From Verrucomicrobiota bacterium (GTDB lineage: Bacteria; Verrucomicrobiota; Verrucomicrobiia; Verrucomicrobiales; Akkermansiaceae), in the NCBI GenBank assembly GCA_030835305.1, contig JAURPJ010000067.1, forward strand, positions 1-39,523: a stretch of 39,523 nucleotides of DNA, in the 5' to 3' direction. Positions 9,115 to 28,687 of the stretch are shown piece after piece. Both the position numbers and the translations under genes were made by a program. Below the pieces are notes generated by a model, which was not told where the DNA came from, made no database searches, and saw only the letters and a program-made list of their open reading frames with translations. Position 1 is the first letter of the stretch; each line of letters starts with the position of its first letter.

Positions 9115-12100
9115 ATGAAACTTCTTCCGGCCGCCGCACTATTCTTTCTGACTCAACCCCTCCTCGCCCAGCGTCCCAATGTTGTCGTAATCATTTCAGA
9201 CGACGCCGGCTATGCCGACTGGGGTTTCATGGATGATTACCTTCAAACTATCAATCCCGGTCAGCCCGACTCGCAGGTCCCCACTCCCAATCTCGATGCC
9301 CTGCGCCAACGGGGAACCCTCCTCACCAACGCTTACACCGCAGCTGTTTGCTCGCCCTCAAGAGCTGCCATCGTCACCGGGTCCTACCAACAACGAATTG
9401 GCTACGAATATAACATCAACAACCTCATGGGGGCCAATGACATTGACGGACTTTCACCTGACACCACCACCATCTTTGACCGAATGAAATCCGAGGGCTA
9501 CACCACCGGCGTCGTGGGCAAGTGGCACCTCGGCGCGCGCGACAATGGCGGCGGACTCGGCAACCGACCCGAAAATCAAGGCGTCGATGAATTCTTTGGA
9601 ATTTGGAAAGGTTCGCGAAATTACACCATCGGAACAACGACGGGATCTGGAACCCTGCGTGAAACCATCACCTCCCCCTTCTCTGATACCGTCCTCGAGA
9701 CCACCCCGCCCTGGAACACCACCAGCAATTACGTCACCAATGCATTCGGAACGGGTGCCGTGAATTTCATCAAAAGACACCACGCTGACCCCGATCCCTT
9801 TTTCCTCTATGTTTCTTTTACCGCCCCTCACTCACCCATCGGCCCCTCCCCTGACATTGGTGATCCACGCCTGACAACCCTCTCGGGTACTCGCAAAAAT
9901 TACGCCTCCATGGTCCTCACCATGGATCGCGAAATTGGCAACATCCTTGACACCCTCGATAACCCTGCAGGCGACGGTTCGGTCTCAGTTACCGAAAGGA
10001 CGCTCGTCATCTTCATCAACGATAACGGAGGTGCCTCCGGAATCGGAACCGACAACACTCCTCTTCGCAGTTTCAAAGGCTCCATCTTTGAGGGCGGAAC
10101 GCGCGTCCCCATGATCATTGCCGGAACCGGGCTTCCGGAGAATGCCACCTACCACGCCCCCATCCACTCCATCGACATTCTCCCCACCTGCCTCGATGCC
10201 GCTGGCGCAAGCCCTCCATCCGAAATCGACGGCGTCAGCCTTCTCCCCTATCTCAACTCCACTATTCCCGGCGTCCCCCACGAAGTCATCACCATTCGAA
10301 ACGACACAAAAGTGAGTGTCCGGAAAGGCGACTGGAAGCTTGCCAGGAACGCTGCCAGCTCACCCTTCTTACTTTTTAACACTTCAGAAGATCCTGGAGA
10401 AACAAGAGACCTCGCCTCTACCAACCCAAGCATCGTTGAAGACCTCCTCGACGATTTTACCGCTTTCGAAACTACCGCCGACAAACCTCGTCATGCCGGG
10501 CTTGGCAGCGCGCCTTCTTCCATCAACCTAAACAACACTTTCGTGTTCGCACCCCAGAGAACGCTACAGGGAGATTTCACTCCAAACCTGACTCTCGTCG
10601 GGGGGGATTTGCGCAACGGCAACTTCAATGCGGGTAGTGCGGGAGGTGTGCAAACCTTCGCGCGAACCTCTTCGTGGGAGAACACAGGAAACGGCACCTC
10701 CCTGGAAAACTTCACTAACACCAGCCTCTCGGCGGACGGATCCAGAAATGCCATCATCGCCAAAACAATTGCCCGTGCCGCCGGACTTGATACCGGCCAT
10801 AATTTATCAAGTGGAGAAATCTTCCAGGCCAATTTTCAATGGCGCGACGCCTCCGGTTGGAACGACTCTTCCGACCTTATCGCAGTCACCCTTTTCACCA
10901 CCTCCAACAACACCTTCTCTGGATCCCGCACCGATCTCCAGCAGCTCGTATCCAGAACCTCCACTTCCGACTCAAGTTATCAAACCGAAACCCTCCTCTT
11001 CAGTCCCATCAGCGCCAGTGCACAAGGCAAACGACTCTTCATCGAAATCAACGCCGCTCAATCAGGCAGTGGATTCGCCCGGCTTGACGACTTTGAACTT
11101 CAACGCGGAACCGTAGGGCAAGGCGGCGTCAACACACCAATCCTTGTCGATTGGTCTCAAGGTTCCGCCTGGATCGATCCCGAAACCAACTCGCCGGACA
11201 CCCTCCTTCGAACCGACGCCTTCCCCGGCTGCGTCCTTCAATTCCCGGCGACCCCGGAATTCTCCTATGAGGCCAACAATGACATGACCCGTGTCAGCGG
11301 GCTCACCTTCATGCTCAACTCGCTCCACCTCACCGGATCGTTCGATGCTCCATCCCCCCAATCCACCACCCTGCGCGGAAACAATCTTCTCCTCACCAAC
11401 GACCTCAAAAATTTGCCTCCAAGCATCCGTCTCGATGCCATGGGCTCCAACTACACTTTCCTCATCCAGCAGGACCTCGCCCTTTACAACGATCTCGAAA
11501 TCACCGGAGACGGAACCGCCACCTTCATTTTAGAAGGCCAGCTCTCGGAACATCATCCATCTTCCTCTCTCACCAAGTCCGGAAGTTCCACCTTGCTCAT
11601 CAAATCCTCTCCCTCCCACACCGGGACCACCACCATTACCGGGGGAGAAATCATTCTGGCCGCGGACACCACCCTCTCCTCCGAAGTTATCCTTGCGGAG
11701 AACGGCACAATTTCCGGCAACGGCACTCTGACTCATTCCCTCAGCGGTCCCGGCACTATTTCCCCGGGCCAGGGCATCGGGACCTTGACCCTCCACAACG
11801 CCGCCCCCGGAAGGCTCCACCTAGAAATCGACAGAGCTCAATCCGATCAACTTGTTTCCACCGGAGAACTCAATCTTTCAAACACCACCCTCACTTGGTC
11901 GGCTCAAAACCTAACTGAAGCCATCTACCCGATCATCACCTACACCACCCTCGTTGATGGCTTCCGTGATGCCAACGCTCCGCCAACCGGATACCTCTTC
12001 GACTACCAATACCAGGGGAACCAGATCGCACTCGTCCGTTCCATCCAAGCTTATCAAATCTGGTCAGAACGAACCCACATGCTCTCCGGAGCCGACTCTC

Positions 12101-12441
12101 TTTTTTCAGCGGACCCCGATCTCGATGGTATTTCCAACGGACTCGAATTCTTCACCGGCAGCAACCCCGCCGAGTTCACCAAAACCCACCCACTCACCAT
12201 CTCCCGGACCTCCACCTCAAACAGTATCAGTTACCCAGTCTCATCTCTTGGACAAGCGACGTTCTTTCAAATTCAATCTTCCACCGACCTTATCAATTGG
12301 GGTGACGCCTTCCCCGGCGGCCAATTTTTCGTCATCGATGAAGAGGAGCATTTCCACCGACCGGGGCTTGGCCGCTTTTCCCAATCAGCGGTCATTCCGG
12401 CTGACGGGATTCGCTTCTTCCGACTTATCCATCAACCTTAA
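9115..12441 (+). CDS. Secreted multidomain sulfatase with shared accessory module and passenger-type repeats
   Basis: The 1108-residue protein begins with a signal peptide cut near Ala18. A type I sulfatase domain (about 20-465) follows: SDDAGYADWGF supplies metal aspartates, C79 in VCSPSR is the formylglycine site, then GVVGKWHLG, a TAPHSPI segment and FINDNGGASG. The enzyme should hydrolyse a sulfate ester outside the cytoplasm, probably on a polysaccharide; it needs a formylglycine-generating enzyme, not found here. Residues 486-665 are a module also present in the next gene. Residues about 820-900 contain repeats like autotransporter passenger-associated repeats (TTTITGGEIILAAD, then NGTISGNGTL). 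Near residue 1001 is an acidic DPDLDGISNGLEFF segment of calcium-binding type, and the protein ends with a Verrucomicrobia-like FFRL tail. There is no transporter barrel. The stop is 5 bp before the phosphatase start, so the two are probably co-transcribed. Confidence 0.9.
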   Translation: MKLLPAAALFFLTQPLLAQRPNVVVIISDDAGYADWGFMDDYLQTINPGQPDSQVPTPNLDALRQRGTLLTNAYTAAVCSPSRAAIVTGSYQQRIGYEYNINNLMGANDIDGLSPDTTTIFDRMKSEGYTTGVVGKWHLGARDNGGGLGNRPENQGVDEFFGIWKGSRNYTIGTTTGSGTLRETITSPFSDTVLETTPPWNTTSNYVTNAFGTGAVNFIKRHHADPDPFFLYVSFTAPHSPIGPSPDIGDPRLTTLSGTRKNYASMVLTMDREIGNILDTLDNPAGDGSVSVTERTLVIFINDNGGASGIGTDNTPLRSFKGSIFEGGTRVPMIIAGTGLPENATYHAPIHSIDILPTCLDAAGASPPSEIDGVSLLPYLNSTIPGVPHEVITIRNDTKVSVRKGDWKLARNAASSPFLLFNTSEDPGETRDLASTNPSIVEDLLDDFTAFETTADKPRHAGLGSAPSSINLNNTFVFAPQRTLQGDFTPNLTLVGGDLRNGNFNAGSAGGVQTFARTSSWENTGNGTSLENFTNTSLSADGSRNAIIAKTIARAAGLDTGHNLSSGEIFQANFQWRDASGWNDSSDLIAVTLFTTSNNTFSGSRTDLQQLVSRTSTSDSSYQTETLLFSPISASAQGKRLFIEINAAQSGSGFARLDDFELQRGTVGQGGVNTPILVDWSQGSAWIDPETNSPDTLLRTDAFPGCVLQFPATPEFSYEANNDMTRVSGLTFMLNSLHLTGSFDAPSPQSTTLRGNNLLLTNDLKNLPPSIRLDAMGSNYTFLIQQDLALYNDLEITGDGTATFILEGQLSEHHPSSSLTKSGSSTLLIKSSPSHTGTTTITGGEIILAADTTLSSEVILAENGTISGNGTLTHSLSGPGTISPGQGIGTLTLHNAAPGRLHLEIDRAQSDQLVSTGELNLSNTTLTWSAQNLTEAIYPIITYTTLVDGFRDANAPPTGYLFDYQYQGNQIALVRSIQAYQIWSERTHMLSGADSLFSADPDLDGISNGLEFFTGSNPAEFTKTHPLTISRTSTSNSISYPVSSLGQATFFQIQSSTDLINWGDAFPGGQFFVIDEEEHFHRPGLGRFSQSAVIPADGIRFFRLIHQP
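10570..11109 (+). repeat. Shared accessory module, copy A (in the sulfatase)
   Basis: About 180 codons align by eye along their whole length with 12750-13301 in the phosphatase gene. Matching blocks are the LTLVG start with RNGxFN, DGSRNA, DTGH followed by GE(I/V)FQ, QWRDA with WN, LFTT, a KRLF segment and FARL(D/E)(D/N)F with a final LQRG. The composition and blocks suggest an extracellular beta-sandwich, perhaps carbohydrate binding; that function is inference. Confidence 0.8.
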
Positions 12442-12446
12442 TTGTC

Positions 12447-15400
12447 ATGTTCAGACTCTTGCCCATTGCCCTCGTCACTCCGGCCATCGCCGCTCCTGTC
12501 TCTCTGCTCAACCCCGGAGGCGAAATTAATAACGGAATCGACCGCACCCCCGTCTCCGACCTCTCCGTTATTGCGTGGGAGGGTAGCGGCCAGGTCATCA
12601 ATGACCACACGGATTACGGAAACGGCGGATGGCGACTGACTTTCGAAGACTCCGGCGAGATTCGCCAACTTACTCCCCACCTCATCGAAACCGGAGCCTC
12701 ATACTCACTGCGATTCGATGCCGCAATCTTCAGCGGAGCCACTCCCGGTGGGGACTTTATCCCCGACCTCACCCTTGTCGGGCCGGGAGTCCGCAATGGA
12801 GACTTCAACGAAGACAACTCTCCCATCGATGGACGCAACTACGCACAAACGCCGTTTTGGTATAATCTCGGCATCGTAAACCAAGCCAGCCAGGCCACTC
12901 GCTTCAATCCCGCCAACACCGCCCTCGACGGGAGTCGCAACGCCGTTCTCTCCGCCAATGCCCAACGTCGATTCGCCATCGACACCGGACACACCCTAAT
13001 TGCAGGCGAGGTCTTTCAGATCACCTACCAATGGCGGGATGCCTTCAACTGGAATTCCGATTCCAACCGCGTCCGCGTCATTCTTTTCACCACCGACGAT
13101 GATACCATCACCGGAAACGAAACTATCATCCAAAGCATTGATTCGGATCTTTCCACCATCCCCACAACCTACGAAACCCAGCGTTCAGTTTTTGCCCCGG
13201 TGCCAACCTCCTTTGCGGACAAACGTCTCTTCGCCTCCTTTCAGGCCATCAATGGAGGCGGCGGATTCGCCCGACTTGAAAACTTCACTCTCCAACGAGG
13301 CCAATCAACCGGAATACCAGTCCAGCGCAACTTCACCGCCGAACTTTACGTCGAAGAAGATGGGATCATCCAACCCATCGCCTCACGGACCTACGACTTC
13401 AAATCCCCCACCGTAGGCTCATGGTTCCACTACCACCTCGCCGTCCCTCCCGGAACTCTTGATGCCCACGCAGGAAAAGCGCTAGGCATTCGCTTCCGCG
13501 GCACCCCCACTCCCGAGAACAACTTCCAATCCATCGACAACGTTCGGCTCAACTCGTGGAGTGCGGACGCTCCTCGCGAAGACTTCCAAATCAACTGGAA
13601 CACCACCCCTAACCAGGTCTGGCCCGGGCCCGGCTTCTGGGGAAATCGCCTGCACGACTGGGAGGTTCGGAATGGCCGGGTCAACTGCATCCTCGGAGAC
13701 CGCGATCGCCGAACCCTTCATAAAACCAACACCACCCTCCGGGGCGACGGACAGAACTTCACCTTCTCTGTTCGTACCGGACTCGATGCCGGTAACAGTT
13801 CAAGTGGCGCCCGTTCCGGCTTCATCCTCGGCGCCGGACCCTCACTCGATTGGCGAGGTTCCCTTCTCGTGCACGACGGCTTGGGCCGCGACTTCGGAAT
13901 CTTCCTCGGGATGAGGGGTGATGGTTCAGCTGTCATCGAAGATATGACCACCGGAGGAACCAACCTCCTCGCTGCGGGAGAGCCCCAGGTGTCACTCTCG
14001 AACAACACCCGGCTGGATCTCAACGCCGTTTATCTACCCGACTCCGGAACCTACCGGCTCACGCTCGACGCCTTCGACCTGAACAACTCCTTCAGAAGCC
14101 GCGCCATCGCCGAGGTTCCCTCCGATCAACTTCTCGGTTCTCTCGCCCTCCTTTCTCACAAAGGAGCAAACAACGCCCGGTTTTGGTTTGATGATTTTAC
14201 CGGATCAGGCCCCGCCCTCAATCCCGAGCCCGACCGACATCTCGCAATCCTTGGCTCAATGTATAGCCTCAGCCGTAATACGCTCAAACTTACCGCCCAA
14301 CTTCCACCCATGGACCTCGCCAACACTTCCGATCTACTTCTCGAAGTCCGGAATGGCGAAGCGTGGCAAACCGTGGCCAGCGCCCCCATCGACACCACCG
14401 ACAATCTCTCATCTTACACCGCGACCTTCCGCGTTTTCGATTGGGATGACACCCGCAAAATTGAAATCCGCACCACGATCACTATCGACGGAACACAATA
14501 CCACTGGAACGGATTCATTCGTAAAAACCCGACCGGCCAAGAAAGTATCTCGGTCGCTGCGACAACCTGCCAGCGTATCGCGGACGGGCAGGTTCAGAAC
14601 GACGGATTCGACTGGTCACCCGTTCGCCTTTGGCAACCCCACACTCTCGCCTTCAATCATATCGCCAAACACGACCCCGATGTCTTCCTTGCCTTAGGTG
14701 ACCAGATTTACGAAGGACAACCCACCCCTGAGGACAGCAGCATCGACTTCAACCGCCACCACGACTACCTTTATAAATGGTATCTCTGGGTGCTTCAGGC
14801 CCGGGAAATCACCAGAGACCGCCCCACTATTTGTATTCCCGACGACCACGATATTTTTCAAGGTAATCTCTGGGGAGAGGGCGGCATTTTTACCACCAGC
14901 CAAAACACCGGAGGCTACGATGAACCTGCGACTTGGGTCAAAATGGTCGAACGAACCCAGACCCTCCACCTTCCTGACTCCGATCCCTACAACCCGGTCC
15001 AACCAGCGCCCCCGGTCGCCCAGGGGATTCCCACCTACTTTACCGGCATGATTTATGGTGGAGTCGGGTTTGCCATCCTCGAAGATCGCAAATTCAAAAC
15101 CGGCAGCACAAATCCACCAGCCAACCTCAACCAGCAATTCCTTCTCGGCAACCGCCAGAAAGACTTTCTTCGCGACTGGGCCGAGGACTGGGATGATCAG
15201 AAAATCAAATGCGTCGTCTCACAATCCCCGTTTGGAAACCTCCACACCCACGCCAACAGCGGATACGGATTTGGACTCAATGACCGAGACACCCACGGCT
15301 GGCCCACCCACCGCCGCAACGAAACATGGGAACTCCTGCGCCTCTCCCGCATGTTTCAAATCGCCGGAGACCAACACCTCGCCACCATCGCCCACCACGG

Positions 15401-16547
15401 CATCGACGGCCCGGCCGACGCCGGATTTTCCTTCACCGCTCCTGCCATTGCCAACTTTTTCCCGCGGACCTGGGACCCCGTCAATAACTCGGCCGGTCGC
15501 ACCAACAAAGTGAGTCCTTACACGGGAGACTTCTTCTTCGATGGCACCGGCACCCTGCCAACAGGCCAGTCAAACCTGACCTCGCAATTCCCCCATCACC
15601 TCCGCGTTCTCGCCGTCGGAAATCCTCACCAATATTACAATCAGACTCGCAACATCTCTCCGGCGAACCTCCACGACCGGGGCGCCGGATATGGCATCAT
15701 CCGGATGAACAAAAGCAACCGCCGGATCACCTTTGAAACCTGGCCCCTTCATGCCGACCCCGGATCCCCCTCAACCGGCTCGCAATTCGACGACTGGCCT
15801 CTCACCATCTCCCAAACTGAGAACGACGGAAGAGTCCCCACCGGCTACCTCCCGGCTATCACCACCGGAATCAACCCTTCACCCGTTCTCAAAGTCTACG
15901 CCGAAACAAGTAACGAGTTAATCTACGCCATCCGAACCCGGGACAACTTCGTCCGACCACCCGTTTACGACAACTCTCTTACTTACCGCATCGAACTCAG
16001 TGACAGGCGCACTCTAACCAACCAGGCCCCTGCTACATTCCCTACTCCGGCGATCAATTCCTTCGAAGCTCTCATTCCCCGCATCATCCCGGGACAAAGC
16101 TCGCTTCTCCGCTGGAACATAACCCCTGGCGAAACAGTCACCCTCAACGGTGAAGACGTCAGCCCGTTTACCGTCAACGGTATCGGCTTCCTCGAAGTCT
16201 CTCCTCTTGAAGCAACCACCTTCACTCTTACTATCAACGGTGAAACTTCTCAAACCGCCGAAGTTCAAGTCCTCAAAACAGCTCCGACGATCGAGCCCAC
16301 CGCAGCCACCAACAACAACCAAGCAGCCTTCACTTCCCCTTTTCCCGCCGGAGCACGTGCCGAGCAATTCGTCATCGCCAGCTCAAGCGACCTCATCACC
16401 TGGACTCCTTTACCCGCCTCGTCCTTCAATCGAGAATCCGACGGCTCAACAACGACCCTAAGCCTTCCTTCGTTACCGTCAGGATCCACGTCTCTCTTCT
16501 ATCGAGGCGAATGGCAGCTTGAATCTACTCCTCGGGCATCTCGTTAA
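12447..16547 (+). CDS. Secreted PhoD-like metallophosphatase with N-terminal beta-sandwich modules
   Basis: The 1366-residue protein starts with a signal peptide (LLPIALVTPAIAA). Residues about 18-101 and 290-374 read as two halves of one jelly-roll domain (YSLRFDAAIF in the first half, FTAELYVEEDG and IDNVRLNSW in the second). The shared module (102-285) lies between them. Residues about 375-595 resemble a LamG/concanavalin-like sandwich. The PhoD/alkaline-phosphatase-D-like catalytic domain covers about 690-1050, with metal-binding motifs LGDQIYEG (D752), PDDHDIFQGN (D799, D800, H801, D802) and AGDQHLATIAHHG (D975, H977). It should act as a phosphomonoesterase or diesterase at the cell surface. 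The remaining approximately 300 residues are Ig-like and end without a recognised anchor. It starts 5 bp after the sulfatase and its 3' end overlaps a minus-strand LamG remnant. Pairing a sulfatase with a phosphatase suggests release of sulfate and phosphate, or stripping of esters from a glycan. Confidence 0.87.
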   Translation: MFRLLPIALVTPAIAAPVSLLNPGGEINNGIDRTPVSDLSVIAWEGSGQVINDHTDYGNGGWRLTFEDSGEIRQLTPHLIETGASYSLRFDAAIFSGATPGGDFIPDLTLVGPGVRNGDFNEDNSPIDGRNYAQTPFWYNLGIVNQASQATRFNPANTALDGSRNAVLSANAQRRFAIDTGHTLIAGEVFQITYQWRDAFNWNSDSNRVRVILFTTDDDTITGNETIIQSIDSDLSTIPTTYETQRSVFAPVPTSFADKRLFASFQAINGGGGFARLENFTLQRGQSTGIPVQRNFTAELYVEEDGIIQPIASRTYDFKSPTVGSWFHYHLAVPPGTLDAHAGKALGIRFRGTPTPENNFQSIDNVRLNSWSADAPREDFQINWNTTPNQVWPGPGFWGNRLHDWEVRNGRVNCILGDRDRRTLHKTNTTLRGDGQNFTFSVRTGLDAGNSSSGARSGFILGAGPSLDWRGSLLVHDGLGRDFGIFLGMRGDGSAVIEDMTTGGTNLLAAGEPQVSLSNNTRLDLNAVYLPDSGTYRLTLDAFDLNNSFRSRAIAEVPSDQLLGSLALLSHKGANNARFWFDDFTGSGPALNPEPDRHLAILGSMYSLSRNTLKLTAQLPPMDLANTSDLLLEVRNGEAWQTVASAPIDTTDNLSSYTATFRVFDWDDTRKIEIRTTITIDGTQYHWNGFIRKNPTGQESISVAATTCQRIADGQVQNDGFDWSPVRLWQPHTLAFNHIAKHDPDVFLALGDQIYEGQPTPEDSSIDFNRHHDYLYKWYLWVLQAREITRDRPTICIPDDHDIFQGNLWGEGGIFTTSQNTGGYDEPATWVKMVERTQTLHLPDSDPYNPVQPAPPVAQGIPTYFTGMIYGGVGFAILEDRKFKTGSTNPPANLNQQFLLGNRQKDFLRDWAEDWDDQKIKCVVSQSPFGNLHTHANSGYGFGLNDRDTHGWPTHRRNETWELLRLSRMFQIAGDQHLATIAHHGIDGPADAGFSFTAPAIANFFPRTWDPVNNSAGRTNKVSPYTGDFFFDGTGTLPTGQSNLTSQFPHHLRVLAVGNPHQYYNQTRNISPANLHDRGAGYGIIRMNKSNRRITFETWPLHADPGSPSTGSQFDDWPLTISQTENDGRVPTGYLPAITTGINPSPVLKVYAETSNELIYAIRTRDNFVRPPVYDNSLTYRIELSDRRTLTNQAPATFPTPAINSFEALIPRIIPGQSSLLRWNITPGETVTLNGEDVSPFTVNGIGFLEVSPLEATTFTLTINGETSQTAEVQVLKTAPTIEPTAATNNNQAAFTSPFPAGARAEQFVIASSSDLITWTPLPASSFNRESDGSTTTLSLPSLPSGSTSLFYRGEWQLESTPRASR
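12750..13301 (+). repeat. Shared accessory module, copy B (in the phosphatase)
   Basis: Counterpart of copy A at 10570-11109, about 184 codons. It appears nested inside a jelly-roll: the sequence just before it (strand YSLRFDAA) and just after it (FTAELYVEE) would normally be consecutive in such a domain. Only moderate DNA similarity to copy A remains, so the duplication is old. Confidence 0.8.
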
Positions 16548-22243: not shown

Positions 22244-22759
22244 ATGGATCTTTCGACCGCCGAATTCACCCGCAAATGGACCAGCGCCCTGCCGCAGGTC
22301 TCTGCTTTTGTCGGCTCGATGGTCTTTGATGTCAGTGATCGCGATGACGTCCTGCAAGACTGCGCCATCGCCGCCATGACTTCCTTCGATCGCTACGATT
22401 CCACACGCCCCTTCGCGGCCTGGGTGATTGGGGTTGCCCGAAATCAGGTCCGCCTTTACCTGCGCCGCAAATCCAAAGATCCTCATATCTTTGACGATGA
22501 TGCCCTAAACAACCTCGTCGATGCCTTCTCCCGAATCCGGCCCTCTCACGACAAACGACTGACTCGGCTTGAGAACTGCGTTTCCCAACTCGATGACCGG
22601 GCTCGCGAATTATGCGAACTTCGCTACGCTCGGAACCTCAAGCCAGCCGCTATCGGAGAACAGCTGGGGATGTCACCGAATGCCGCGGCGAAGGCCCTCC
22701 AGCGGATCCGCGAACAACTTCGAAGCTGCCTCGAAAAGCCCCAACTTTCGACATCATGA
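22244..22759 (+). CDS. ECF RNA polymerase sigma-70 factor
   Basis: The 171-residue protein has the two-domain ECF layout. Sigma region 2 covers about 15-90 (FDVSDRDDVLQDCAIAAM, then FAAWVIGVARNQVRLYLRRK, the helix that melts and reads the -10 element). Region 4 covers about 115-165 (LDDRARELCELRYARNLKPA, then the recognition helix MSPNAAAKALQRIREQLRSC). It resembles the Rhodopirellula/Verrucomicrobium ECF subfamily that is usually encoded next to FecR-LamG proteins. It should direct RNA polymerase to a small regulon, perhaps including the downstream genes. Its TGA overlaps the next ATG by 4 bp, so sigma factor and putative regulator are translationally coupled. Confidence 0.93.
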   Translation: MDLSTAEFTRKWTSALPQVSAFVGSMVFDVSDRDDVLQDCAIAAMTSFDRYDSTRPFAAWVIGVARNQVRLYLRRKSKDPHIFDDDALNNLVDAFSRIRPSHDKRLTRLENCVSQLDDRARELCELRYARNLKPAAIGEQLGMSPNAAAKALQRIREQLRSCLEKPQLSTS

Positions 22760-24330
22760 ACCAGGAACACGACCAACTTTTTCACGGTTTTATTGACGGC
22801 ACCCTGAATCAAGGTGAGCTAGGTAAGCTCAATAAAATTTTAAAGGAGTCTCCAGCCGCTGCGGATCAATTCGCTGAAATTGCGCTCCTGCACGGCTCTC
22901 TCCATTCTGGCTTCCAGTCCGGGGCACTCGCAACGAAACACACACACGCAGTAGCAAATATTTCCGGCTGGAAGCCCATTCTCTCCTCATCAAAAACACT
23001 CCTCCCGTGGACCATGGCAGCCGCTGCCGCCGTTGTGGCAATCATCGCACTCCGTGATCCCGAATCCGGGATCACCACCTCTTCGGTCGCCGAAGTCGAG
23101 AAGCACCATACCGGCTTTGCAATCCTGACCCACTCGGTGAATTCGATCTGGTCCGGAACCACTCCGGCCGAGGGAGACCTTCTCCCCCAGGGACTCCTCG
23201 AGCTGAAATCCGGCCTCGCTCAAATCGAATTTTTTTCCGGTGTATCACTCGTCCTCGAGGGAGACGCCGCTCTCGAAATCATTTCGCCCGACGAAATGCG
23301 ACTTCTCCGTGGTAAACTCAGAGCACACGTCCCGCGCCCCGCCATCGGTTTTCAAATCCACACGCCACAAGGCACGGCCCTTGACCTTGGGACCGAATTT
23401 GCACTCGACGTCTCGCATTATGACTCCGAGCTCCACGTCATCGACGGCGAAGTCGAGTGGCATGACGAATCAGAGCCAGATATCCTGCTCACAAAGGGAC
23501 AAGCTCTCCAACTGACCGGCAAGGAGAACTCGCGAATTGAAGCCAAACCAGAACGCTTCACCGGCCCTGATCAACTGGCACGCAAAATCGCAGCCTATCA
23601 AACCGATCGTTTCACGGACTGGCAGCAGGACTCTCGGGCGACCGAAAGCCACCCCGAACTACTCGCCTACTTCCCAATGGACCAACTCCAGGATTGGGAC
23701 CGGGAACTCCCCTCGAAGGCTGGAAAAATTCTTCCGGGAGCCATCGTCGGCGCGAAAATCGTCGAAGGTCGTTGGCCGCAAAAAGAAGCTCTCGACTTCT
23801 CACCCAATGGCTCCCGTGTACGCGTCCACATCCCCGGAAGACATCAAGCACTCACCTACTCCACCTGGGCGAAAATCGACAGCCTCGACCGCCAATACAA
23901 CGCCCTCTTCCTCACCGACAATTACGGCCTTGGCGAACCGCACTGGCAGATCCGTGAAGACGGCCGCCTGTTTTTCTCGGTCGGCCTGGGAAAAGGAAAG
24001 CTCCATCACATTTTTCATTCGCCCGTGATATGGGACTATACCAAAAGCGAGCAATGGCTTCACCTCGTCACCACTTATGACGTCGAAACCCGTACTTGCG
24101 TTCACTACCTAAACGGAGAAGAAATCAGCCGCGAATCTGCTCCCAAGGAAAAGGGTGTGGGCGCCCTCGTCATCGAAAACGCTCAGATCGGAAACTGGGG
24201 ACTCCCCACTCGCGAAGAACCTGAGTTTGCCGTCCGCAACCTCAACGGGAGACTCGACGAATTCACAATTTATCAATCGGCGCTCACTCCTAAAGAGATC
24301 AAATCACTCTACTTTTCCGGCAAGCCCTGA
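22756..24330 (+). CDS. FecR-LamG membrane protein, putative regulator of the ECF sigma factor
   Basis: The 525-residue protein has an approximately 80-residue N-terminal cytoplasmic helical segment (FIDGTLNQGELGKLNKIL and DQFAEIALLHGSLHSGF) like anti-sigma domains. One membrane helix follows at about 82-99 (LLPWTMAAAAAVVAIIAL). A FecR domain covers about 150-255 (LEIISPDEMRLLRGKLRAHV and GTALDLGTEFALDV). The C-terminal LamG/concanavalin-like sandwich covers about 305-522 (LTYSTWAKID, HWQIREDGRLFF, LNGRLDEFTIYQSALT). By family logic the outer LamG part could bind a glycan or protein and signal through FecR to the sigma factor; that is inference. I chose the ATG at 22756 for its ATGA overlap with the sigma gene; the frame is open upstream within that gene. 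Confidence 0.88.
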   Translation: MNQEHDQLFHGFIDGTLNQGELGKLNKILKESPAAADQFAEIALLHGSLHSGFQSGALATKHTHAVANISGWKPILSSSKTLLPWTMAAAAAVVAIIALRDPESGITTSSVAEVEKHHTGFAILTHSVNSIWSGTTPAEGDLLPQGLLELKSGLAQIEFFSGVSLVLEGDAALEIISPDEMRLLRGKLRAHVPRPAIGFQIHTPQGTALDLGTEFALDVSHYDSELHVIDGEVEWHDESEPDILLTKGQALQLTGKENSRIEAKPERFTGPDQLARKIAAYQTDRFTDWQQDSRATESHPELLAYFPMDQLQDWDRELPSKAGKILPGAIVGAKIVEGRWPQKEALDFSPNGSRVRVHIPGRHQALTYSTWAKIDSLDRQYNALFLTDNYGLGEPHWQIREDGRLFFSVGLGKGKLHHIFHSPVIWDYTKSEQWLHLVTTYDVETRTCVHYLNGEEISRESAPKEKGVGALVIENAQIGNWGLPTREEPEFAVRNLNGRLDEFTIYQSALTPKEIKSLYFSGKP

Positions 24331-24378: not shown

Positions 24379-27201
24379 ATGAAGCCACTTCTTCTCGTTA
24401 TTCTCCTCACTCATTTCGCGTGGGCTGCCACCCCCGAAGAACACGCCACCCTCAAGGCTCTTCCCATTCTCTCTTCGAAATGCGCCGCCTGCCATGGCGA
24501 AGACCCGGATGATATTGAGGGCGAGCTCAATCTACTCACCCGCGAGGGCTTCCTGAAGGGTGGCCAATTCGTCAAGGACCTCCTCGTTCCGGGCGATGTC
24601 GAAAAATCCTTTCTCATGACGGTTATCAAATGGGAAGATCCAGACTTCGAAATGCCCCCAAAGGAGAATGACCGGCTGACACCCGCGCAGATCGCCCATA
24701 TTGAAACCTGGATTAAAAACGGAGCCCCTTGGCCCAGTGAAGCCGACCAAAAGGTCATCCTATCAGCCGAAAAAGAAAAAAGACTCACCGACGAAGGTCT
24801 CATCATCGAAACCTCCGGCGGCCTTGCTGACGACTGGACCTTTCGACGCTATAAACCTGAAACCGTCTGGGCCTTTCTTCCACTTAAAAAACCAACCCCA
24901 CCTTCCGGCAAACCCAACCCAATCGATGCCTTCATTCACGCCAAGCTTAAGTCCGCCAAGTATGAACCAGCCCCGCGTGCCAACCTCCGCACTCTGATTC
25001 GCCGGGTCTCCTACGACCTGATTGGGCTCCCTCCCACTCCTTCCGAAGTTTCCCAGTTCATTACCGCTGCAGAAAAAGACTTCGACACCGCCTACGCGTC
25101 TCTTGTTGAGCGGCTTCTCGCCTCTCCTCACCATGGCGAGCGCTGGGCCCAGCATTGGCTCGATGTCGCCCGCTACGCCGACACCGGAGGCCTCTCCAAC
25201 GACTACGAACGCTCCAACGCCTGGCGCTATCGCGACTACGTCATCCGCGCTTTCAACGAAGACAAACCCTACAATGAATTCATCATGGAACAGATCGCCG
25301 GCGATGAACTCGCCGACCAGTCCCTTCGCAAACGTGTTGGTGATGACGCGAATTACGAAGAACTCCGCAGAAAAGGTCACTACTCTCCCAAAGAGGCCGA
25401 TCAAATGATCGCCTCGTCCTTTCTGCGCATGGGCCCGTGGGATCCGGCCATGGTAAAGGCTCCCGAAGCGAGGCAGCAATACTTGGATGATGTCGTCAAT
25501 GCCGTTGGCCAAACCTTCCTCTCCACCACCATGCGCTGCTTCAAGTGCCATGACCACAAATTCGACCCACTCCCCACCAGGGACTACTACCGCATGTATT
25601 CCGTGTTTGCGGGAACCCAACTCGCCGAGCGTTTCGTCTCATGGCAGGAGCACGACAACAAGGTCGGCTTTGAAGAAGAAAAGGCACAAATCGAACTCCT
25701 CCACAGCTTCGCCGACAGCGAAGCCAAACGCCTTCAGCATAAGGTCGAGGAGCATGCCCGGAAATGGTATGCCGACAACGACCTACCCTACAAAAACCTC
25801 AAGGCCCGGAAAAACGACTCCGTCGATCAAAAGCCACCGCGCCACGTCGGCCTCGACGAAACGGAAAAAGGACAACTCAAAGTCCGCGAACAGGACGAGT
25901 GGATTTGGAACCGCCGTCGCGAACGCTTCCTCCCCATGGTTCAATCCGTCTACAACGGCCCCGATCCCAAATTCCTCAATGCCCGAAAACTCCGCATGCC
26001 GGGCAAGATCAACGGAAACTGGAAACCCGACTCCCACATCCTCACCGGCGGTGCCCTTGAAGCCCCCGGTGAGAAAGTCACCCCGGGTGTTCTCTCTGCT
26101 ATCGGACTTCCCGTCGAGGGAGCTCCGGAAGATGATCCCTACGCCACGCCCGAAGACCTGGACGGTCGCCGCCTCGCCCTCGCCAAGTGGATCGCCCATC
26201 CCCAAAACCCGCTCGCCGCGCGCTCTATCGTCAATCGAATTTGGCAATACCACTTTGGCAAGCCCATCGCCGGAAACCCCAACAACTTCGGAGTGAAAGG
26301 CTCACCTCCAACCCACCCGGATCTTATCAACTGGCTCGCCTCCGACTTTATCAAAAACGGCTGGAGCATCAAACGACTTCACCGGCTCATCCTGACCTCG
26401 GAAACCTACCAGCAATCCAGCCACCATGGTGATCACTACAAGCTCGCACAGGAGGACCCCGACAACGACCTCTTTGCCTTCTTCCCCCATCGACGCCTCA
26501 CCGCCGAAGAGCTCCGCGACTCCATGCTCCACATCACCGGAGAGTTGAATCCAACCGCCGGCGGTCTGCCGATTCGACCTGAAATGAATATGGAAGTCGC
26601 CCTGCAACCCCGCATGATCCAATTCTCCATTGCGCCAACCTATCTCCCAAGCAAAACCCCCGAGCAACGCAACCGGCGTTCCATTTACGCCTACCGCGTG
26701 CGCGGACTCGCCGATCCCTTCCTCGAGACCTTCAACCAACCCAATCCCAACGACTCATGCGAAGAACGCGACTCCGCCTCTGTTTCTCCCCAGGCCTTCA
26801 CGCTCATGAACAGCGATCTCGTCACCGATCGCTCCATCGCCCTCGCCCTGAGATTGGAAAAAGAATCCGGCACTCTTCCCGCACAAATTCAGCGCGCCTT
26901 CCACCTCGTCTTTAATCGCAAGGCGAGCGAGGAAGAAGCCACCAAAGTCGAAGCTTATGTGAAGGAGATGCAAGTCTACCACGCCGACAAGACTCCCAAG
27001 CCCCGAGAATATCCCACCGAGATCACCCGCTCGCTTGTTGAAGAATTCTCAGGTCAACCTTTCGAATACCAGGAACTCCTTCCCGTCTTCAACGATTACC
27101 AACAGGACAAACAAGCCTCCGACGTCAGCCCCAACACCAGAGCCCTCGCCGATTTCTGCCTCATCCTCTTCAACTCCCACGAATTTGTTTACTCTTATTA
27201 G
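24379..27201 (+). CDS. PSCyt1/DUF1549/DUF1553 exported cytochrome-like protein
   Basis: The 940-residue protein has a signal peptide (LLLVILLTHFAWAA). A PSCyt1 heme-binding domain follows, with CAACH at 35-39 and a candidate Met ligand in FEMPPKENDRL. DUF1549 (PSCyt2) covers about 175-395, from NPIDAFIHAKLKS through GERWAQHWLDVARYADT to a second heme-type motif CFKCH at 387-391. DUF1553 (PSD1) fills the C-terminal third: LAKWIAHPQNPLAARSIVNR, IWQYHFGKPI, FFPHRRLTAEELRDSMLHI and LFNSHEFVY at the end. Such proteins are abundant in Planctomycetota and Verrucomicrobiota, act outside the cytoplasm and are suspected of redox steps in polymer breakdown; no reaction is proven. The gene starts 48 bp after the FecR-LamG gene and is followed at 68 bp by its usual DUF1501 partner. 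Confidence 0.93.
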   Translation: MKPLLLVILLTHFAWAATPEEHATLKALPILSSKCAACHGEDPDDIEGELNLLTREGFLKGGQFVKDLLVPGDVEKSFLMTVIKWEDPDFEMPPKENDRLTPAQIAHIETWIKNGAPWPSEADQKVILSAEKEKRLTDEGLIIETSGGLADDWTFRRYKPETVWAFLPLKKPTPPSGKPNPIDAFIHAKLKSAKYEPAPRANLRTLIRRVSYDLIGLPPTPSEVSQFITAAEKDFDTAYASLVERLLASPHHGERWAQHWLDVARYADTGGLSNDYERSNAWRYRDYVIRAFNEDKPYNEFIMEQIAGDELADQSLRKRVGDDANYEELRRKGHYSPKEADQMIASSFLRMGPWDPAMVKAPEARQQYLDDVVNAVGQTFLSTTMRCFKCHDHKFDPLPTRDYYRMYSVFAGTQLAERFVSWQEHDNKVGFEEEKAQIELLHSFADSEAKRLQHKVEEHARKWYADNDLPYKNLKARKNDSVDQKPPRHVGLDETEKGQLKVREQDEWIWNRRRERFLPMVQSVYNGPDPKFLNARKLRMPGKINGNWKPDSHILTGGALEAPGEKVTPGVLSAIGLPVEGAPEDDPYATPEDLDGRRLALAKWIAHPQNPLAARSIVNRIWQYHFGKPIAGNPNNFGVKGSPPTHPDLINWLASDFIKNGWSIKRLHRLILTSETYQQSSHHGDHYKLAQEDPDNDLFAFFPHRRLTAEELRDSMLHITGELNPTAGGLPIRPEMNMEVALQPRMIQFSIAPTYLPSKTPEQRNRRSIYAYRVRGLADPFLETFNQPNPNDSCEERDSASVSPQAFTLMNSDLVTDRSIALALRLEKESGTLPAQIQRAFHLVFNRKASEEEATKVEAYVKEMQVYHADKTPKPREYPTEITRSLVEEFSGQPFEYQELLPVFNDYQQDKQASDVSPNTRALADFCLILFNSHEFVYSY

Positions 27202-27268
27202 AAGCAAGTCACAGACCGCTAATAACCAACCGCCAAGCCTCACCATCCCACTCGCAACGAACCAATAC

Positions 27269-28687
<1,419 letters not shown>

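Follow-up and report, generated by a model that had tools for sequence, protein, structure and literature searches.

The window analysed here, a stretch of 39,523 nt of contig JAURPJ010000067.1 (assembly GCA_030835305.1) from a Verrucomicrobiota bacterium of the Akkermansiaceae, codes for two neighbouring exported enzymes, a sulfatase and a PhoD-like phosphatase, whose features are collected in Table 1. The former belongs to the formylglycine-type sulfatases (PF00884, 156.7 bits), and its ORF contains CSPSR, which fits the motif of that class, C-x-[PA]-S-R. A passenger-associated repeat (PATR) can be seen weakly at its C-terminus, below the cut-off both in Pfam (PF12951, 15.4 bits against 27) and in NCBIfam (TIGR02601, 19.2 bits against 19.85). 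The phosphatase is placed among the PhoD-like enzymes by PF09423 (E 1.2e-8, 34.9 bits against a cut-off of 27), and its catalytic domain is preceded by an unnamed domain common to the PhoD relatives found, in which positions 13578–14366 have no Pfam match above the cut-off.

Table 1. Features of the sulfatase and phosphatase genes (positions in the window)
Feature	Position	Strand	Basis
Exported sulfatase, 1108 aa	9115..12441	+	ORF; Pfam PF00884, 1.1e-45, residues 21-365
Shared module copy 1 (sulfatase), after the catalytic domain and ahead of the C-terminal beta-repeats	10576..11118	+	BLASTP; structure model
Weak passenger-associated repeat (PATR), sulfatase C-terminus	11569..11649	+	PF12951, TIGR02601
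Exported PhoD-like phosphatase, 1366 aa	12447..16547	+	ORF; Pfam PF09423
Outer HpiC1-like jelly-roll, N-terminal half	12495..12755	+	PF22825/HH profiles, model
Shared module copy 2 (phosphatase), within a loop of the outer jelly-roll	12756..13307	+	BLASTP; structure model
Outer HpiC1-like jelly-roll, C-terminal half, with linker	13308..13559	+	PF22825/HH profiles, model
Unnamed domain common to the PhoD relatives found	13563..14366	+	Tryptophan-rich start, WxGxxxWxN-like
PhoD catalytic domain	14643..15398	+	PF09423, residues 733-984

A module common to both enzymes

The initial annotation had proposed that one full-length module, belonging to no named family, recurs in the two enzymes. Both ORFs and both copies lie where it had placed them, with the bounds of the copies (10570–11109 and 12750–13301) moved slightly by the structure models to the approximate limits in Table 1, and BLASTP aligns the copies, of about 180 residues each, from end to end (78 of 184 residues identical, 42%; 111 of 184 positive; E 9e-50). 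The want of a family name also holds: for 23 members neither Pfam nor NCBIfam gives a match with E below 0.013, none of them matches a Pfam CBM family, and PF22825, the profile of the Stig cyclases/HpiC1, is not listed for any of them even at E ≤ 1. An assignment of the phosphatase copy to Agglutinin_C was rejected, with 16.3 bits against a cut-off of 26.8 in just one of the 23.

The genome has no further copy beyond these two, either by single-sequence search (E ≤ 0.01) or by profile (E ≤ 1e-4). In a tree of 72 modules, from which those matching fewer than 140 profile positions had been dropped (L019 and L022 among them), the copies from sulfatases form a clade of their own (15 rows, support 98/88), as do those from PhoD proteins of the window type (9 rows, 100/99), and the wider group holding both clades has a support of only 84/67; carriers are labelled as sulfatases by a short motif, with Pfam applied to the window sulfatase and to L031 only. 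At the DNA level the two copies of the window agree in 321 of 493 aligned bases (65%), and their longest exact match spans 12. At such divergence they do not stem from a recent duplication; taken with the separate supported clades, it leads us to reject gene conversion between the two genes as well.

Both copies are modelled with good confidence by AF2 (pLDDT by ten-residue blocks of 73–97 in the phosphatase and 72–97 in the sulfatase) and display an identical order of 11 predicted strands. Their best solved matches are the Stig cyclases (Z 15.3, 167 aligned residues, rmsd 2.8 for the phosphatase copy; Z 14.1, 163 aligned, rmsd 2.9 for the sulfatase copy), followed by CBM4/16 (CBM4-2 with Z 13.7 and 12.4, respectively). 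The same ranking for both predicted copies thus points to a CBM-like jelly-roll. Remote homology agrees with the fold, in that the module aligns over nearly its whole length with 31 unsplit HpiC1-like domains (HH probability 87.9%, E 3e-6, the E-value being that of one comparison) and again in a second HH comparison (86.5%). In the sulfatase, the low model confidence on either side of the module (pLDDT below 50) suggests flanks that are probably flexible, or it may instead reflect a shallow alignment and cut ends.

The split outer domain of the phosphatase

The sequences on either side of the phosphatase copy had been read initially as two halves of a single beta-sandwich, with YSLRFDAA and FTAELYVEE as the strands bordering the module. 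By our residue mapping these stretches indeed fall within predicted strands (74–85 and 284–293) of a model whose first 50 residues are partly of low confidence. Once the module is removed and the flanks are joined, as the initial annotation had advised, PF22825 is listed in eight of eight proteins (E 1.4e-7 to 0.011), covering the full profile in five and exceeding the curated cut-off of 27 in three (31.2, 32.2 and 29.1 bits); the window protein itself stays below it, at 16.2 bits over profile positions 68–174 only. In one of the eight (L003) the halves taken apart give no match for the N-terminal one and 20.4 bits for the C-terminal one. A comparison with the 31 unsplit domains, which come from the same bacterial family and two of which were first found with the joined profile itself, returns an HH probability of 96.7% over columns 1–170 (E 4e-10, again for one comparison), and a second one 95.4% (E 2e-8). 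By profile, then, the flanks can be read as an outer jelly-roll of the HpiC1 type. By fold and remote homology, the module is a jelly-roll too and shares with its host domain one HpiC1/CBM-like superfamily, a kinship that the initial annotation had missed; compared head-on, module and outer domain reach an HH probability of only 4.5%.

A chain of three independent domains at the N-terminus, in which the module would simply come second, has to be weighed against this. Scores from local profiles leave some room for such a reading: in a shifted-deletion test on nine proteins the joined score roughly equalled both halves added together, a shift of +30 outscored the unshifted cut in four and one of −60 in two, the intact sequence (to which the module itself contributes a weak match) outscored the joined one in two, including the window protein, and exchanging the halves lowered the score by just 2 to 7 bits, which means that sequence score by itself neither fixes the cut nor proves contact between the halves. 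The structure search, moreover, covered the module only, the outer domain being without a structural match among the matches listed because the module filled them; a plain Foldseek list, made up mostly of long alignments of high rmsd, was set aside. Against three domains speaks the fact that the flanks are colinear and complementary parts of one profile, neither amounting to a whole domain, and that unsplit relatives align over both without a break. The two residues of the Ca2 pair of Stig cyclases (PMC9063808) are likewise divided, one to each half: an invariant Glu at the start and an invariant Asp at the end of the split domain (E10 and D165 of A2, in our mapping). Three unrelated consecutive domains were not found, and we regard this arrangement as improbable.

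The relatives of the phosphatase speak for insertion as well. The outer domain is interrupted in 17 of the 17 genomes of the family with this N-terminus, by one module in 11 and by two in six, and the two tandem modules occupy the very site that otherwise takes a single one, which bears out the initial proposal that the module sits inside another domain. A profile built from unsplit domains only, used at a permissive threshold with pieces of 3 to 14 bits, locates a break between positions 92–101 and 115–140 in eight of 14 PhoD genomes scanned, and it finds none at the other loci scanned, including 11 fetched for the purpose. Splitting is therefore confined to PhoD proteins among the loci scanned, and a general insertion hot-spot in HpiC1-like domains can be set aside (none of the 11 further loci split, most with a partial match). 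An uninterrupted PhoD protein with this N-terminus was met neither among 145 genomes of the family nor among 387 of the phylum, of which only three matched at all. While sharing the catalytic domain, the more distant PhoD-like relatives differ here, for in 14 of the 14 read only 32 to 101 residues lie ahead of the unnamed domain, which leaves no space for a jelly-roll of about 170. That the module is nested in the outer jelly-roll is thus indicated jointly by the profiles, by the related proteins and by the number of modules they carry.

Putative roles of the nested and free modules

The break in the outer domain maps to the loop that carries the Ca1 site of the Stig cyclases. Since the module finds its best structural match in these cyclases, it might be asked whether one of the two domains, module or outer jelly-roll, acts as an enzyme of that kind. 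The catalytic Asp214 is retained in neither: with an index offset of +2 in our mapping, its position is occupied by Ser in all seven outer domains of A2 and, in the 23 modules, by Arg (20), Phe (2) or Asn (1), and in the outer domain a whole module stands in place of the Ca1 loop. An enzymatic role is accordingly highly improbable, and the loss of the cyclase Asp from both suggests that the two are probably binding domains. In fold, size and accessory position within exported enzymes the module recalls CBM4, CBM16 and CBM22, from which it differs in lacking a Pfam CBM match, in being a putative binder only and, in the phosphatase, in being nested within a domain of its own superfamily.

We consider it likely on the whole that the shared segment is a mobile CBM-like module serving putative glycan binding. 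In the sulfatase it would be strung as a bead on linkers between the catalytic domain and the C-terminal repeats, whereas in the phosphatase it would occupy a single loop in a further, N-terminal jelly-roll of the HpiC1-like kind—a beta-sandwich within a beta-sandwich, joined through two linkers of about seven residues and replacing the cyclase loop that holds Ca1 near the substrate pocket. These domains would most probably keep both exported enzymes on an extracellular glycan during the removal of sulfate and phosphate, with the nested pair offering two sites in fixed geometry. The pairing of the two genes is an observation that counts in favour of this picture, whose other elements, namely binding, the ligand bound and the advantage that nesting would bring, we infer; a role of the module in guiding the sulfatase and the phosphatase to one polymer, as first suggested, is plausible and consistent with its fold and carriers.

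The same architecture might instead be used for attachment or crosslinking on the surface or in the matrix of the cell itself, or for docking between proteins. Two free-standing copies (L033 and L034) carry, by eye, a PEP-CTERM-like sorting tail, and the fold also occurs among structure matches in toxins, meprins and a phage baseplate. However, the carriers, which are spread across Verrucomicrobiota and include one planctomycete, comprise two GH16 proteins and a CBM6 protein besides the sulfatases, and CBMs are many of the nearest folds other than the cyclases, so that we hold a role away from the substrate to be unlikely. More tentatively than the glycan-binding proposal itself, the loop beside the pocket may be seen as a docking slot for one or two jelly-rolls of the same superfamily, which would yield a rigid composite grip on glycans whose number of modules varies between related bacteria, the sulfatase being armed by an unspliced one. 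Were this so, it would represent an evolvable nested binding domain in place of the usual beads on a string.

A parallel is offered by the CE20 esterases, in which, according to PMC12313940, a beta-sandwich is inserted into another domain of a polysaccharide-active enzyme; the host there is the catalytic domain, whereas here it is a jelly-roll of the same superfamily. Titles and abstract openings of the open-access literature held, among the matches listed, nothing similar to such nesting or such a module. An unrecognised module of Verrucomicrobiota and one planctomycete is thus given a predicted fold, an insertion of one domain into another of its superfamily is documented in which a single loop takes differing numbers of modules, and an exported phosphatase is linked to an exported sulfatase through a common module of putative binding type. 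In the same bacterial family, one member's use of fucoidan is restricted by phosphate, as stated in PMC12872454, and the idea that sulfate and phosphate are stripped from one polymer could be tested with two short recombinant domains.

A module shared by neighbouring enzymes and its fold

The initial annotation had proposed that a sulfatase and the phosphatase next to it share one full-length module, and this is upheld by an end-to-end alignment of the two copies (78 of 184 residues identical, E 9e-50). Their DNA is 65% identical (321/493) with a longest exact match of 12 bases, and the genome holds only these two copies by sequence search (E <= 0.01) as well as by profile search. That the module lacks a recognised named family also stands: among 23 members, none matched Pfam or NCBIfam better than E 0.013.

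AlphaFold2 models cover 366 residues at the phosphatase N-terminus (mean pLDDT 83.8, pTM 0.77) and 329 residues of the sulfatase around its module (mean pLDDT 62.3, a value brought down by the flanks). Both show the module as a sandwich of 11 strands that follow one another in the same order. Two linkers, each some 7 residues long, hold it in the phosphatase (from strand end 85 to 93 and from 276 to 284 in the model); in the sulfatase it lies between the catalytic domain and the C-terminal repeats, with both flanks below pLDDT 50, a value that a shallow alignment and cut ends could also produce.

The best solved structural matches of both copies are the Stig cyclases, including HpiC1 (phosphatase copy: Z 15.3, 167 residues aligned, 2.8 A; sulfatase copy: Z 14.1, 163 residues, 2.9 A), followed by CBM4-2 (Z 13.7 and 12.4, respectively), with CBM16 and CBM22 lower; CBMs are in turn described as the closest structures to the Stig cyclases (PMC9063808). 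At the profile level, almost the entire module can be aligned with HpiC1-like domains that are uninterrupted ("unsplit"), at a probability of 87.9% (E 3e-6) and, in a second comparison, of 86.5% (E 5e-6).

Features of the window
Feature	Position	Remarks
Exported sulfatase	9115-12441	PF00884, 1.1e-45
Module, copy 1	~10576-11118	in sulfatase
Passenger repeat, autotransporter type	11569-11649	sulfatase C-terminus; sub-threshold
Exported PhoD-like phosphatase	12447-16547	PF09423, 1.2e-8; adjacent to sulfatase
Outer domain, N-terminal half	12495-12755	HpiC1-like
Module, copy 2	~12756-13307	in phosphatase
Outer domain, C-terminal half	13308-13559	HpiC1-like
Unnamed domain, ~270 residues	13563-14366	between split jelly-roll and PhoD domain; tryptophan-rich start
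FecR + Laminin_G_3 protein	22612-24330
PSCyt/DUF1549-DUF1553 gene	24379-27201	beside FecR + Laminin_G_3
DUF1501 gene	27035-28687	beside FecR + Laminin_G_3 and PSCyt genes

A probable interrupted jelly-roll in the phosphatase

At E <= 1, the intact window phosphatase matched only the PhoD domain in Pfam. The earlier suggestion that its module sits inside a second jelly-roll gains support when the module is left out: PF22825 (HpiC1-like) is then listed for the joined flanks of all eight proteins tested, its profile being covered whole in five. Three exceed the cut-off of 27 bits (31.2, 32.2 and 29.1 in loci L003, L004 and L105), with the remainder at 24.9, 23.8, 19.8, 17.0 and 16.2 bits, the last being the window's own protein. 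For L003, the N-terminal half alone gave no match and the C-terminal half alone 20.4 bits; with the module in place, the segment reached 25.5 bits, spread over two stretches. Against a set of 31 unsplit domains, two of which had been found with the joined-flank profile itself, the joined flanks scored a probability of 96.7% (E 4e-10). When 14 PhoD genomes were scanned with a profile built from unsplit domains only, matches being read down to 3 bits, 8 of them showed the break, located between positions 92-101 and positions 115-140. The family also has natural unsplit relatives, L113 (73 bits to PF22825) and L111, in which the loop at the break site is a few residues long.

These scores are tempered by a local profile test, in which the joined-flank score was about the sum of those of the two halves, and swapping the halves cost only 2 to 7 bits. 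Cuts shifted by +30 outscored the joined flanks in 4 of 9 proteins and by -60 in 2 of 9; the intact sequence outscored them for two of the nine, including the protein of the window. The case for nesting is therefore drawn from colinearity, the relatives and variants at the site, and not from the joined score by itself.

Such variants are seen across the family, where the joined-flank profile matched 20 of 145 genomes. In 17 of these the outer domain is in two separate pieces, with one module between them in 11 and two in tandem in 6; the other three (G402, G482 and G483) have a single weak match each, in G402 and G482 to unsplit domains of other proteins. Another phosphatase with two modules is found on contig L035. 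Each of the two tandem positions forms one clade (100/99). Neither the 145 family genomes nor the 387 of the phylum sample yielded a phosphatase whose outer domain is uninterrupted. More distant PhoD relatives (14 of 14 read) have only 32 to 101 residues ahead of the unnamed domain, which is common to them all, and therefore are without this N-terminus.

Domain insertion and CBM fusion are both well known; a jelly-roll spliced, in one or two copies, into a loop of a jelly-roll of the same superfamily was not among the open-access literature matches listed. The loop concerned can be placed on HpiC1, in whose alignment Y101F and F138S, both mutations, are found at 99 and 136 of the sequence, an offset of two. 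The HpiC1 strand YTLKVDVGN corresponds to SLRFDA of the phosphatase, and by this offset the loop after it runs from about 137 to 149. Position 138, an active-site residue of HpiC1, is inside the loop on the same mapping. So placed, the loop also contains N137 and further residues of the Ca1 site, which is close to the substrate pocket (PMC9063808). A second calcium site, common to CBMs, uses Glu39 and Asp216 among others (PMC9063808); each flank contributes one of the two corresponding residues, and neither varies among seven aligned phosphatases. In contrast to the catalytic Asp214 of the Stig cyclases, the outer domains have Ser at that position (7/7) and the modules mostly Arg (20/23). Together with the location of the loop, these residues suggest that the outer domain is a binding domain in which a whole module took the place of the loop on the pocket side.

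Carriers, gene pairing and possible function

With the phosphatase copy as query, matches came from 14 genomes in a phylum-wide sample of 387; a 23-row module profile matched 34 of 145 family genomes. A genome-contig scan yielded 12 loci, one from the planctomycete Botrimarina; among those with at least 70% identity, 6 of 8 are named Akkermansiaceae, on which ground we assign the window to this family. Of the 72 distinct modules in the collected loci, 20 belong to sulfatase-motif ORFs, 29 to PhoD N-termini and 23 to other contexts. This last group includes small one-module proteins with an export-type start and PEP-CTERM-like tail (L033, in full sequence; L034 is of the same length) and a protein with three modules in tandem (L005). 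Among the carriers are also proteins with GH16 (L087) or CBM6 (L008) domains, and a GH16 protein with a partial copy (L019). An anti-sigma-like protein, FecR-type by eye, also has a module (L088, 1366-2898), which suggests a sensing role in another member of the family.

Directly upstream of the phosphatase, L025, L026 and L028 carry a sulfatase with the module; L030-L032 have the same order, the pair being separated there by two small ORFs with beta-repeats. The encoded beta-repeat proteins (L031, 3411-5643; L030, 3384-5622), one with a PEP-CTERM-like tail, are absent from the window. L029 keeps the order with the sulfatase frame broken around the module and the phosphatase frame broken too; L027 starts within what is apparently the C-terminal part of the sulfatase and likewise has a broken phosphatase frame. 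Among loci and genomes of the two-module type, a module protein adjoins the phosphatase in L035, and in G448 about 1.6 kb separates the module match in the phosphatase from that in a protein of 660 residues; these proteins, with a module and further beta-domains (L035, 5848-7779; G448 C8, near 73074), stand in the sulfatase's place next to or near the two-module PhoD. In five other such genomes (G399, G404, G462, G485 and G491), the sulfatase and phosphatase matches are on different contigs. Thus, the pairing holds in the window's own relatives and not throughout.

From its fold and carriers, we infer that the module probably serves in binding. We favour a role in which it would keep the phosphatase and sulfatase attached to one polymer that is both sulfated and phosphorylated, or to phosphate-carrying material caught up in it. 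An Akkermansiaceae member degrades fucoidan, with degradation inhibited by lack of phosphate (PMC12872454), and sulfatase content was highest in Verrucomicrobiota and Planctomycetota in one marine survey (PMC8857213); by term search, the word "phosphatase" is absent from the main texts of both.

For the unnamed domain downstream of the split jelly-roll, no Pfam match over cut-off was found. In the PhoD relative L049, it seems, by eye, to enclose a discoidin-like (F5/8 type C) stretch, perhaps another nested domain.
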